Origin: an uncultured Lachnospiraceae bacterium
GTDB lineage: Bacteria > Bacillota > Clostridia > Lachnospirales > Lachnospiraceae
Direction of reading: 5' to 3'
Assembly (NCBI GenBank): GCA_902761225.1
Contig: CACWJQ010000009.1
Location: 1 to 54,899 of the forward strand
Length of the DNA: 54,899 nucleotides
Below, one piece after another: positions 2,558 through 41,800 of this stretch. The position numbers were made by a program, and so were the translations under genes. The stretch's first letter is position 1. Every line of letters begins with the position of its first letter. Under the pieces are notes generated by a model. The model saw only the letters and a list, made by a program, of their open reading frames with translations. It ran no database searches and was not told the DNA's origin.

Positions 2558-4729
2558 TTACAGATGAAGCACTCTTTCCTTGATCTCCTGGGTTCTTCCC
2601 TGGTTCCAGAACTGGGTTCCGATGTAGCCGCAGGTACGTCTTGCAACGTTCATCTTGTTCTGGTCACGGTTTCCGCAGTTGGGGCATTCCCAGATGAGCT
2701 TTCCGTCCTTGTCGCTGACGATCTGGATTTCTCCGTTATATCCGCATACCTGGCAGTAATCGCTCTTGGTATTGAGCTCCGCGTACATGATATTTTCGTA
2801 GATATACTGCATCACGGAAATGACCGCATCGATATTGTCCTGAAGGTTGGGAACCTCAACATAGCTGATGGCTCCGCCGGGTGAAAGTGCCTGGAACTGT
2901 GATTCGAACTTAAGCTTTTCGAAGGCATTGATATTCTCGGTAACATGTACATGATAAGAATTGGTGATGTAGCTCTTATCGGTAACACCGGGAATGATGC
3001 CGAATCTCTTCTGCAGGCATTTTGCGAACTTGTAGGTGGTGGACTCAAGAGGAGTTCCGTAAAGTGAGAACGCGATATTGCTCTCGCCTCTCCACTTCTT
3101 GCAGGCATCATTGAGCTTCTGCATGACCTCAAGTGCAAAAGGTGTAGCGGTAGGATCGGTGTGTGACTTACCTGTCATATATCTGGTACACTCGCAAAGT
3201 CCGGCATATCCCAGTGAAATGGTGGAATATCCGTCGAAGAGAAGCTTGTCTATCTTCTCGCCCTTCTGAAGTCTTGCAAGTGCGCCGTACTGCCAGAGGA
3301 TGGGAGCCACATCGGAAAGAGTTCCCTTGAGGCGGTTGTGTCTTGCCATGAGTGCTCTGTGGCAGAGCTCAAGACGCTCTTCGAAGATGCTCCAGAACTT
3401 ATCGATGTCACCGCCCGAAGAGCATGCGATATCCACAAGGTTAAGGGTTACAACACCCTGATTGAACCTGCCGTAGAACTTGGGAGTCCCGTCCACATTC
3501 TGGACACCGGGCTCGTAGGTAAGGAAGCTTCTGCATCCCATACAGGTATATACATTGCCGCCCTTGAGTTCCTTCATGACCTTGGCTGAGATATAATCGG
3601 GAACCATGCGCTTTGCGGTACATCTTGCGGCAAGTTCTGTCAGATAGTAATACTTGCTGTCCTTGGTTATATTGTCCTCATCGAGAACATAGATGAGCTT
3701 CGGGAATGCGGGGGTGATATATACACCCTTCTCATTCTTGACGCCCTTGATACGCTGCTTGAGCATCTCCTCGATAACGATGGCAAGGTCGTCCCTTGTC
3801 TGTCCCTCAGGAACCTCATCAAGGTACATGAAGACTGTGATAAAGGGAGCCTGTCCATTTGTGGTCATAAGGGTGATGACCTGGTACTGGATGGTCTGCA
3901 CGCCTGCCTTGATCTCATCAAGGACTCTCATCTCAGCGACCTTGTTGATCTCCTCCTCGGTCACCTCTATACCGGCATTCTCCATCTCCTCTTTTACGGT
4001 CTGTCTGAACTTCTCACGGCTTATCTGCACGAAAGGAGCAAGGTGTGAAAGAGAAATGCTCTGTCCGCCGTACTGTGAAGATGCGATCTGCGCGATGGCC
4101 TGGGTGGCAACATTACATGCGGTGGAGAATGAATGGGGCTTCTCAATCATGGTCTCGCTGATGACCGTGCCGTTCTGAAGCATATCCTTCAGATTGACGA
4201 GGCAGCAGTTATGCATATGCTGTGCAAAATAATCAGCATCATGGAAGTGGATGAGACCTGCCTCATGAGCGGCAACGATATCTTCATCAAGAAGGAATCT
4301 CTTGGTGATATCCTTGCTGACCTCACCGGCCATATAGTCACGCTGAACGCTGTTAACAGTGGGATTCTTGTTGGAATTCTCCTGCTTTACTTCCTCATTG
4401 TTGCACTCAATGAGAGAAAGGATCTGCTCATCCGTGGAATTAGACTTACGGACAAGCTGTCTCTTGTATCTGTATGTGATATAGGAACGGGCAACGGCGA
4501 AGGCTCTCTGGTTCATGATCTCATTCTCGACCATATCCTGGATCTCCTCGACAGAAAGAGATCTGGGGATCCTTGAACACTGAGTGAGCATATTGTCGGA
4601 AATGACATCGATCTGCTTCTCAGTCATCCTCTCGGTCTCAATAACACTCTCGTTGGCTTTGCGTACTGCCGCCGTTATCTTCTCAATGTCAAATGGCACC
4701 TCACTGCCGCTTCTCTTGATAATCTTCAT
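2558..4729 (-). CDS. nrdD: Anaerobic ribonucleoside-triphosphate reductase (class III)
   Basis: Reduces ribonucleoside triphosphates to deoxy forms under anoxia using a glycyl radical. The 723-residue protein begins with an ATP-cone (MKIIKRSGSEVPFDIEKIT, roughly residues 1-90), the allosteric nucleotide-binding domain. It contains the catalytic-core segments NCCLVNL and YTCMGCRSF, and ends with a four-cysteine zinc site (CQVC ... CPNC) followed by the glycyl-radical motif RRTCGYIG. The start is ATG at 4729, six bases from a GGGGGA ribosome binding site, rather than the GTG two codons upstream. Its own promoter overlaps a pair of NrdR boxes. The activase gene nrdG, which usually follows nrdD, is absent here: the next gene is an unrelated membrane protein. 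Confidence 0.97.
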   Translation of the reverse strand: MKIIKRSGSEVPFDIEKITAAVRKANESVIETERMTEKQIDVISDNMLTQCSRIPRSLSVEEIQDMVENEIMNQRAFAVARSYITYRYKRQLVRKSNSTDEQILSLIECNNEEVKQENSNKNPTVNSVQRDYMAGEVSKDITKRFLLDEDIVAAHEAGLIHFHDADYFAQHMHNCCLVNLKDMLQNGTVISETMIEKPHSFSTACNVATQAIAQIASSQYGGQSISLSHLAPFVQISREKFRQTVKEEMENAGIEVTEEEINKVAEMRVLDEIKAGVQTIQYQVITLMTTNGQAPFITVFMYLDEVPEGQTRDDLAIVIEEMLKQRIKGVKNEKGVYITPAFPKLIYVLDEDNITKDSKYYYLTELAARCTAKRMVPDYISAKVMKELKGGNVYTCMGCRSFLTYEPGVQNVDGTPKFYGRFNQGVVTLNLVDIACSSGGDIDKFWSIFEERLELCHRALMARHNRLKGTLSDVAPILWQYGALARLQKGEKIDKLLFDGYSTISLGYAGLCECTRYMTGKSHTDPTATPFALEVMQKLNDACKKWRGESNIAFSLYGTPLESTTYKFAKCLQKRFGIIPGVTDKSYITNSYHVHVTENINAFEKLKFESQFQALSPGGAISYVEVPNLQDNIDAVISVMQYIYENIMYAELNTKSDYCQVCGYNGEIQIVSDKDGKLIWECPNCGNRDQNKMNVARRTCGYIGTQFWNQGRTQEIKERVLHL

Positions 4730-33243: not shown

Positions 33244-33275
33244 TAGTTTTCTAAAAAAATCTATTCACGGACGGC

Positions 33276-33430
33276 CAGCGCCACATCGGGCTTTTTATCG
33301 CAGACCCGCCTTTCGGCTTCGGTTCACCCCGTAACGGTACTAAGCTCATGCTTCATTTCATTCGCATTCGCTAAGTGCCGACGGGGTTCACAGAGTCTGC
33401 TTATAAAAACCCGATGTGTGCACTGCCCTG
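33276..33430. repeat. Nested inverted-repeat element, possible structured RNA
   Basis: The outer arms (33276-33305 and 33395-33430) are imperfect inverted repeats sharing CACATCGGG, TTTTTAT and GCAGAC. Inside them lie ACCCCGT/ACGGGGT (33326-33332 and 33381-33387), then GGTACTAAGC against GCTAAGTGCC (8 of 10 paired), and an inner ATGC/GCAT. On the minus strand the right flank also holds a GCC-GAAA-GGC tetraloop hairpin, giving a three-way-junction-like fold. It lies between the acyl-CoA synthetase stop and the rpmG promoter. It could be a 3' UTR RNA, a large terminator (a T7 tract follows 17 bases after the outer arm) or a mobile palindrome. Confidence 0.7.
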
Positions 33431-33446
33431 TTTATGAAAAAATAAA

Positions 33447-35081
33447 TTACAACTCGTTCTCTTTACCGACGAGTCCCTCTACGCTGTAGCGCTTGCGGAG
33501 AACGGGCTTTTCGATCTTGCCGGTAGGGTTGCGGGGCACATCGTCGAATATAATCTTACGGGGACGCTTGTAACGGGGAAGTCCCTGGCAGAATTCGTTG
33601 ATCTCTTCTTCGGTGCAGGTCATTCCGTCCTTGATGGAAATGATGGCGCCTGCGATCTCTCCGAGTCTGGGGTCGGGGAGTCCGATGACAGCAACGTCCT
33701 TGATCTTGTCGTGCTTTCTCAGATAATCCTCGATCTGAACGGGATAGAGATTCTCACCGCCGGATACGATGACATCCTTCTTACGGTCTACAAGGAAGAT
33801 GAAGCCGTCCTCATCCTGCATCGCAACGTCGCCGGTATAGAGCCATCCGTCCTTCAGGACCTCTGCGGTAGCCTCGGGATTTCTGTAGTAGCAGGTCATG
33901 ACGCCGTCACCCTTGACACAGAGCTCTCCGGCTTCACCCTTCTTTACTTCATTGCCGTTATCATCAACGATCTTGCACTGCCATCCGTAGCCGGGCACTC
34001 CGATCGCACCGACCTTGTGGGTATTCTCCACTCCGAGATGCACGCAGCCGGGGCCTATGGATTCGCTGAGACCGTAGTTGGTATCGTACTGGTGGTTCGG
34101 GAAATATGCCATCCATCTTCTGATAAGAGAAGGAGGAACGGGCTGTGCACCGATGTGCATCAGTCTCCACTGGTCCAGTTCATAATCGGAGATCTTAAGA
34201 TCGCCGCTGTCCAGGGAATCAAGGATGTCCTGAGCCCAGGGCACAAGGAGCCATACAATGGTGCACTTTTCGCGGGATACGGCATCGAATATATATGAAG
34301 GCTTGGTACCCTTAAGAAGCACCGCCCTGGAGCCGCTTACAAGGCTTCCCATCCAGTGCATCTTGGCTCCGGTGTGATAAAGGGGAGGGATGCAGAGGAA
34401 ACAGTCATCATGCTGTGTGTTGTGATGGTGCTGTTCAACCGTTGCTGCGGTCATGAGGCTGAGATGCTTGTGAAGGATTGCCTTGGGGAATCCTGTTGTG
34501 CCTGATGAAAAATAGATGGCACCGTCGTCACTGTCCTTAACCTCGATATCGGGAGCAATACTGGAGCAGTCAGCTACCATTTCCCTGTAGCTTTCAGCAA
34601 ATGTGGGGCAGGTCTCTCCCACGAAAATGAGAAGCCTGTTCTGCTGAAGCTTATCGACGATCTGCTCTATACGTCCTATGAACTCGGGTCCGAAAAGAAG
34701 GACATCCACCTCTGCAAGCTCTGCGCAGTACAGGATCTCATCAGCAGAATATCTGAAGTTGAAGGGAACAGCTATGGCGCCGCTCTTAAGTATTCCCATG
34801 TAGATGGGGAGCCACTCAAGGCAGTTCATCATGAGGATTGCTACCTTATCGTTCCTCTTGACGCCTCTTTCCAGGAGCATGTTGGCAACACGGTTAGCCT
34901 TCTCGTCGAAAACTCTCCATGTGATCTCCCTTCTGTAGGGCTGATCCTCGGTCTGCTGGATGAGGGAATATTCCTTCCAGCTTACGCGCCTTGTCTCCTT
35001 CTGCTCCGGGTTAAGTTCGATAAGAGCCACCTCGTCACCGAACTCTCTGGCATTTCTTACAAGATAATCTGTAATAGGCAT
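33447..35081 (-). CDS. AMP-forming acyl-CoA synthetase / acid-CoA ligase
   Basis: Adenylate-forming enzyme that activates a carboxylic acid to acyl-AMP and transfers it to CoA. The 544-residue protein has the P-loop YFSSGTTGFPKAILHKH (about residue 190), the A5 motif YGLSES, the A7 motif LYTGDVA, the A8 hinge DRKKDVIVSGGENLYP and the catalytic lysine in PTGKIEKPVLRK. All core motifs are intact. The substrate (medium/long-chain fatty acid or aromatic acid) cannot be deduced. ATG 35081 has GGAGAAG upstream. It follows the M23 peptidase gene by 47 bp on the same strand; no terminator is seen between them. Confidence 0.93.
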   Translation of the reverse strand: MPITDYLVRNAREFGDEVALIELNPEQKETRRVSWKEYSLIQQTEDQPYRREITWRVFDEKANRVANMLLERGVKRNDKVAILMMNCLEWLPIYMGILKSGAIAVPFNFRYSADEILYCAELAEVDVLLFGPEFIGRIEQIVDKLQQNRLLIFVGETCPTFAESYREMVADCSSIAPDIEVKDSDDGAIYFSSGTTGFPKAILHKHLSLMTAATVEQHHHNTQHDDCFLCIPPLYHTGAKMHWMGSLVSGSRAVLLKGTKPSYIFDAVSREKCTIVWLLVPWAQDILDSLDSGDLKISDYELDQWRLMHIGAQPVPPSLIRRWMAYFPNHQYDTNYGLSESIGPGCVHLGVENTHKVGAIGVPGYGWQCKIVDDNGNEVKKGEAGELCVKGDGVMTCYYRNPEATAEVLKDGWLYTGDVAMQDEDGFIFLVDRKKDVIVSGGENLYPVQIEDYLRKHDKIKDVAVIGLPDPRLGEIAGAIISIKDGMTCTEEEINEFCQGLPRYKRPRKIIFDDVPRNPTGKIEKPVLRKRYSVEGLVGKENEL

Positions 35082-41719: not shown

Positions 41720-41800
41720 TGCAGGTGATGATCAGTCCTCCGGTTACGCGAAGTGCCGACGCCGGCATTTCAAAGGTTCCGCGGGGTATTTTCACCTGCA
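41720..41800. other. Long-range stem in gap before galE
   Basis: TGCAGGTGA (41720-41728) and TCACCTGCA (41792-41800) form a perfect 9-bp stem enclosing 63 bp with GC-rich internal pairs. On the minus strand this would be the galE leader or the 3' end of the upstream transcript. It shares the word GTCGGCACTT-GCG with the element at 33276-33430. No known riboswitch is recognised. Confidence 0.45.

Follow-up and report, generated by a model that had tools for sequence, protein, structure and literature searches.

What kind of element occupies the non-coding DNA between an AMP-binding ligase gene and its downstream neighbour in an uncultured Lachnospiraceae bacterium? The stretch analysed (the window) comprises 54,899 nucleotides of contig CACWJQ010000009.1. 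A first-pass annotation, based on the letters of this DNA, had described a block of nested inverted repeats at 33276-33430 and suggested either a selected RNA fold or a family of dispersed palindromes. Copies found in other genomes, and the covariation among them, support a combination of the two, namely a dispersed family with a selected fold. The element belongs to a dispersed non-coding family that is present in many gut Lachnospiraceae and is apparently uncatalogued. How the family spreads, and which molecule is selected for its shape, is considered below.

Structure and position of the element

The whole element lies on the minus strand, taken here as the RNA-sense strand. It spans 33428 to 33273, a length of 156 nt from one end of the outer helix to the other, and the annotated ends differ from these by at most 3 nt. 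The four nested paired segments and the GCC-GAAA-GGC hairpin noted in the first-pass annotation were all recovered. Overall, a long outer helix (P1) leads into a short helix (P2), beyond which a junction carries the irregular P3 and the GNRA-type hairpin P4. In the predicted fold, P1 is formed by a 5' strand at 33404-33428 and a 3' strand at 33273-33298, and P2 by AAGCAGACTC (33393-33402) and GGGTCTGCG (33299-33307). P3 is predicted as a long irregular hairpin (33324-33389) with a 2-nt bulge, a U-U mismatch and a tandem G-A. The P4 hairpin with its GNRA loop (33308-33317) is apparent in the sequence as well as in the predicted fold. Comparison of the left and right ends of copies delimits two short feet, ACA (33429-33431), which adjoins the outer helix on the 5' side, and GTCCGTG (33266-33272) on the 3' side. 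The latter may be a diverged form of the GTNACT end found in many copies of the genus.

On the minus strand, the RNA fold of 33260-33445, flanks included, reached -90.8 kcal/mol with z -9.63; the plus strand gave -79.0 kcal/mol with z -8.16. On either strand, 0 of 200 shuffles folded equally well. The element starts 18 nt past the stop codon of the ligase gene (ORF 33447-35081). A run of seven T begins 13 nt beyond its end, and a promoter-like site follows at 33243-33215, upstream of a gene which we take to be rpmG; secE and nusG come after it.

Distribution of copies

Fifteen copies were aligned (A1) and a model, R1, was built from this alignment. The window copy is one of the 15, and its R1 match (33264-33435, flanks included, 149.3 bits) is therefore obtained by construction, as are those of the other copies in A1. 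No further match was present in the window at E<=10. The first-pass annotation had also pointed out a word near 41740 that is shared with the element. This word, GTCGGCACTTCGCG, does recur exactly on the minus strand at 41747-41760 (2 matches in the window at no more than one mismatch, against 0.09 expected), while a recognisable second copy of the element does not. R1 gave no match there at E<=10, the fold was weak (z -1.37; 21 of 200 shuffles were at least as good), and an intact element of G022 (L035) in the corresponding gap showed an 8-nt match and no likeness beyond it. A second copy at this site was consequently rejected as not shown. The word stands upstream of a gene, in the very gap where G022 carries its intact element.

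The search of the own genome and of other Lachnospiraceae that had been proposed in the annotation, together with a model, yielded further copies in the own genome and matches throughout the family. BLAST found three strong matches in the own genome, the window copy and two more, and R1 found seven at E<=1. Over 97 genomes including the own one, BLAST at E<=0.01 matched 19, of which 17 belong to the genus and two gave short matches elsewhere. R1, whose E-values are rough, matched 31 of the 31 genomes of the genus at E<=0.01. Under strict filters and with no more than nine candidates scored per genome, it matched 116 of 299 sampled family genomes, representing 115 of 298 genera, at E<=1e-4. In G245, an assembly of two contigs, 54 R1 matches at E<=0.01, some of them weak or partial, lie in one contig of 2.45 Mb. 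Named genomes were scanned with a pattern that has the tandem G-A and U-U motifs built in, and at least 114 stretches fitted it. The 80 matches listed come mostly from Lachnospiraceae and from MAGs of other Clostridia; a few carry different labels, one of them a Muribaculaceae MAG. Falcatimonas sp. MSJ-15 and Lachnospiraceae FE2018 are among the genomes hit. The element measures 156 nt in the window and about 150-210 nt in other copies.

An origin from phages or plasmids was considered and set aside, as BLAST with the window copy as the only query gave no match in phages and plasmids at E<=0.1, and one exact pattern had no match in viral contigs. In Rfam 15, no family reached its gathering cut-off at the window element. 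The only sub-threshold match was SpF36 (24.1 bits against a cut-off of 48). Twenty loci with other copies likewise gave no family at cut-off on the element; three ordinary cis-regulatory RNAs were detected elsewhere in these loci. The annotation had named a lack of other copies and of covariation, or coverage by one known Rfam family, as outcomes that would speak against it. Neither occurred, since there are further copies in the genome and strong covariation, and no Rfam family at cut-off. No description of the family was found in open-licence papers, with supplements outside reach, which is no proof of absence.

For the analyses below, 89 matches, less eight from duplicate or near-identical loci or of partial or antisense nature, were combined with 111 matches less ten (one duplicate, the others truncated, partial or antisense). 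The resulting 182 copies include some orthologues, and 173 of them have enough flank for analysis of ends, arms and loops.

Covariation and the selected strand

In A1, 93.7% of pair cells hold a standard pair, compared to 75.1% after shuffling, and the covariation score is 0.540 compared to 0.186; none of 500 shuffles reached the A1 value. Sliding the partners by 1-3 columns lowered the standard pairs to 29-43%. Changes on both sides were found in 33 of the 49 pairs, including 20/21 in P1, 2/7 in P2 and 9/16 in P3; P4 is invariant in the 15 copies. The sequence of P1 thus varies among most copies compared. This helix is free in sequence while its pairing is kept in the great majority of copies, and the core keeps its shape across copies. 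Given how strongly the core covaries, the folded strand is probably functional in its own right.

The P4 loop obeys a narrow rule. A strict parse yielded 125 G..A loops (48 of the 173 copies remained unparsed), every one with a purine at the third position. A looser parse gave 199 of 201, made up of 66/68 in the genus, 41/41 in G245 and 92/92 in named genomes, and the two exceptions are genus loops with C at this position. The irregularities of P3 are nearly constant within the genus. In 74 placed copies out of 76 found by BLAST or model, the tandem G-A is present in 71, the U-U mismatch in 73 and a YU bulge in 71. The 94 placed copies from named genomes are no evidence for these motifs because the search pattern demanded them. 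In G245, where the genus geometry of P3 could be placed in just 13 of 42 copies, 24 of the 42 are fully paired in that stretch and lack the tandem G-A, and at least 12 keep a G-A version with different neighbours. The tandem G-A and U-U are hence nearly invariant in the genus but not universal across subtypes.

Mispairs give an indication of the strand. Model alignments, which lean towards the model structure, were counted over 84 of the 89 A2 rows and all 42 A4 rows; on these, G-U exceeded A-C by 124 to 44 in the arms and by 64 to 18 in the core. Counted without a model, in the 92 of 173 copies with an ungapped arm register, the arms gave 60 to 26; P3 of the genus gave 19 to 9. The minus strand of the window is likely the selected strand, as the excess of G-U over A-C would be reversed on the opposite one. 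Together with the purine rule of the loop, this excess points to the minus strand as the selected molecule and favours RNA. At one step or more the selected molecule is probably RNA, and single-stranded DNA throughout is the less likely form.

Genomic setting and pairing of copies

The setting of the 182 copies was determined with gene calls from a simple, purpose-made ORF scorer. Overlap with predicted genes was absent in 174 of them. Relative to both neighbours, 69 copies lie in sense and 59 in antisense orientation; a further 19 are flanked by convergent and 13 by divergent genes, and for 22 a neighbour falls outside the available stretch. Single copies between co-directional neighbours showed a similar division (46 sense, 37 antisense) and lie close to stop codons, at a median distance of 31 nt in sense and 23 nt in antisense orientation. 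No orientation bias to genes was found among the 182 copies. The absence of a sense-orientation bias indicates that the element is not a leader RNA.

Copies do have a preferred orientation towards each other. Among 26 pairs less than 600 nt apart, 22 are divergent, four have the same direction and none is convergent. The divergent pairs represent 18 sites once two groups of three orthologous pairs are each counted singly. Spacers measure 2-308 nt between model ends, and in eight of the 22 divergent pairs just 2-36 nt.

In G245, a weak strand bias relative to GC skew was observed (31/46, 36/53 or 36/54, depending on the choice of boundary; P 0.013-0.026). If contig C1 of this genome is circular, its sampled GC skew flips sign four times around it, a pattern that hints at a large inversion or a misassembly.

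Presence, amplification and divergence of copies

The copies are dispersed, occur in some relatives and are missing from others, and have in places been recently amplified. The ligase end was compared in 18 genomes. The own genome has one element there, G007, G011, G015 and G028 have divergent pairs, and in G023 and G020 rpmG adjoins the ligase gene without an element; the other 11 have no element and different neighbours. The gap in G023 contains a CGTCACT sequence and may for that reason be a remnant rather than an empty site. Similarly, at a site where G012 has a divergent pair, G009, G006 and G005 have just a short, element-free spacer, and G013 carries an element of its own.

Recent amplification is seen in two genomes. 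G012 has five copies with nearly the same arms and unrelated flanks; in four pairs compared, 0-5 of 27 positions per side differ in the arms, and the cores differ at 9-19 of about 100 positions, mainly in P3. In G245, one arm pair is common to 14 of 42 copies, and 12 of 26 copies examined are near-identical and far apart. Ten G245 units of 198-208 bp have the inverted ends AGGGGCTGT / ACAGCCCCT, one of them slightly changed. No target-site duplication was seen by eye at these ten units or at the five G012 copies. In the genus, many copies have only short feet in common while their arms differ. The feet read CGTNACT in many genus copies and GTAG in copies of one named genome. It had been considered that the arms are derived from the target, as hinted by G030, in which the left arm of the G017 copy is directly followed by the downstream flank. 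This idea was dropped because copies in G012 and G245 have the same arms at unrelated sites.

Six near-identical copies in G012 (L289-L292, L303 and L304) have a right flank of about 65 nt in common, which ends in a second CCGTCACT. These copies may belong to larger duplicated segments. Four of the six sit at contig ends, so that copy numbers from draft genomes are probably underestimates. In the same genome, L331 (G012:C32) contains near its start a 251-nt hairpin unit with apparently another core and the ends AGTGACAG / CCGTCACT, which suggests that there is more than one core with this kind of end.

At one orthologous site, in G011 and G015, 3 of 104 core positions differ, every one in the tip of P3, against 15 of 54 arm positions, where most changes look compensated by eye. 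Three other orthologous comparisons gave 3-10 of 104 for the core and 3-10 of 54 for the arms. The contrast between core and arms is thus strong in G011/G015 only, smaller in the other comparisons, and reversed in the recent G012 copies. Both the orthologue and the G012 patterns would follow if copies exchanged contiguous inner hairpins. Exchange as a cassette at a fixed arm mismatch, which eight copies beside one gene had hinted at, was rejected since the outer arms track the element type. Two element types stand beside the same gene in L047, L048, L049, L072 and L042, and their order in G015 (with G011, which has one element) is opposite to that in G007 and G002 (with G026, likewise with one element), the arrangement that an in-place inversion of a divergent pair would leave. 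A small palindrome, CAAGTACATCCATGTACTTG, was observed within a longer hairpin at a similar point of the element in two species, G023 and G028 (L009 1612-1631 and L305 1581-1600), and was present in two of the 328 loci examined.

Search for a mobilising enzyme

None of the searches linked a transposase, integrase or reverse transcriptase to the element. Matches to the Y1 transposase (PF01797) are absent from nine of 14 genomes, the own genome included, and the model search found no elements in the seven Y1 loci (about 2.5-3.4 kb) of the other five. Mobilisation by a RAYT/IS200-type enzyme was rejected on these grounds. A gene carried between divergent copies that lie far apart was rejected as well, as none of the ORFs in such intervals (L164, L167, L180 and L174) was recognised by eye as a transposase. 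In G027, the site orthologous to that of the G017 element (L243, about 2990-3070) holds a different palindrome with GGGGACGGTTC twice, which resembles RAYT-type repeats. The G027 genome has two Y1 matches.

Nature of the element

The element is, with fair probability, a non-autonomous, REP/MITE-like dispersed mobile element that consists almost wholly of one folded hairpin. We infer that an enzyme acting in trans would recognise the folded single strand together with its short feet, and would place new copies in intergenic DNA. The differing outer helices would then arise, probably, by drift and compensation at each site, and contiguous inner hairpins may pass from one copy to another by recombination.

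A selfish palindrome that acts purely at the level of DNA, akin to REP or CGTC-tagged repeats but larger, and whose folded single-stranded DNA is read by a transposase, would account for the lack of gene-orientation bias, the preference for divergent pairs and the feet at both ends. It also agrees with a REP-like distribution as described in PMC3733652, with the loss of the tandem G-A in the G245 burst and with the weak strand bias of that genome. The RNA fold would then be a by-product. However, RNA accounts more naturally for the loop purine (125/125 and 199/201) and for G-U outnumbering A-C, and such a palindrome is possible though rather unlikely.

More speculative, and in our estimation unlikely, is a structured RNA of the whole family acting as the mobile unit in its own right. 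Its transcript, or a single strand, would be recognised in folded form and copied back into the chromosome, selection for movement and not for the host would maintain the GNRA-type junction, and nested hairpin modules (outer arms, core and P3 tip) would be reshuffled between copies.

Service to the host, as a 3'-end stabiliser, terminator or leader acting in cis and multiplied through its usefulness, could be read from the window copy, 18 nt past the ligase stop with the seven-T run 13 nt beyond its end, from the short distances of single copies to stop codons, and from the one orthologous site at which the core is kept and the arms drift. Such a role is improbable, as antisense copies nearly equal sense copies (59 against 69; 37 against 46 among singles) and relatives differ in the presence of an element at the same gene. 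It is highly improbable that each copy is an independent small-RNA gene with a promoter of its own: the core covaries and divergent pairs could share a promoter region, but 8 of the 22 divergent pairs leave just 2-36 nt between model ends, a scan limited to small hairpins showed no minus-strand terminator near the end of the window element, and the nearest upstream minus-strand promoter-like site (33574-33547) falls inside the ligase gene.

More than a third of the sampled Lachnospiraceae genera matched this structured non-coding element, at up to dozens of matches per genome, and Rfam has no entry for it; the known repeats of gut commensals would thereby gain a major class. It widens the spacers between genes and probably breaks assemblies. 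It offers a testable case of a mobile element that is conserved in its folded core more than in its ends, and the identity of the moving enzyme would tell whether RNA takes part.

Comparison with known systems

REPs, REPINs and CGTC-tagged repeats are described in PMC3733652 as simple intergenic hairpins of 20-40 bp, present in many copies, with short unpaired feet and with dimers in a preferred opposite orientation. According to the same paper, whose main text does not mention clostridia, CGTC repeats have no dedicated transposase. The element resembles these repeats as an intergenic palindrome with many copies, opposite-orientation pairs and feet, and without a dedicated transposase. It differs from the simple REP hairpin with its GTAG or CGTC foot in its length of about 150-210 nt and its branched core. 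Unlike REPs mobilised by RAYTs, it has no link to Y1 in the 14 genomes searched.

A study of structured RNAs in the human microbiome reported, in its main text, 250 palindromic candidates among 3161, of which 20 were not predicted terminators (PMC8040213). Lachnospiraceae, Agathobacter and Roseburia are not named in that main text, and overlap of the family with its candidates is possible. With the structured RNAs of Rfam the element shares strong covariation, a GNRA-type hairpin and a junction, but no family of Rfam 15 reached its cut-off at the element in the window or in the 20 further loci. MITEs, such as BOX, ERIC and EFAR, offer a further comparison. Like these, the element is short, non-coding and dispersed, and its G245 units have clear inverted ends. 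Unlike them, it shows no target-site duplication at the copies inspected, and it is the folded centre that is conserved while the ends vary between genomes.
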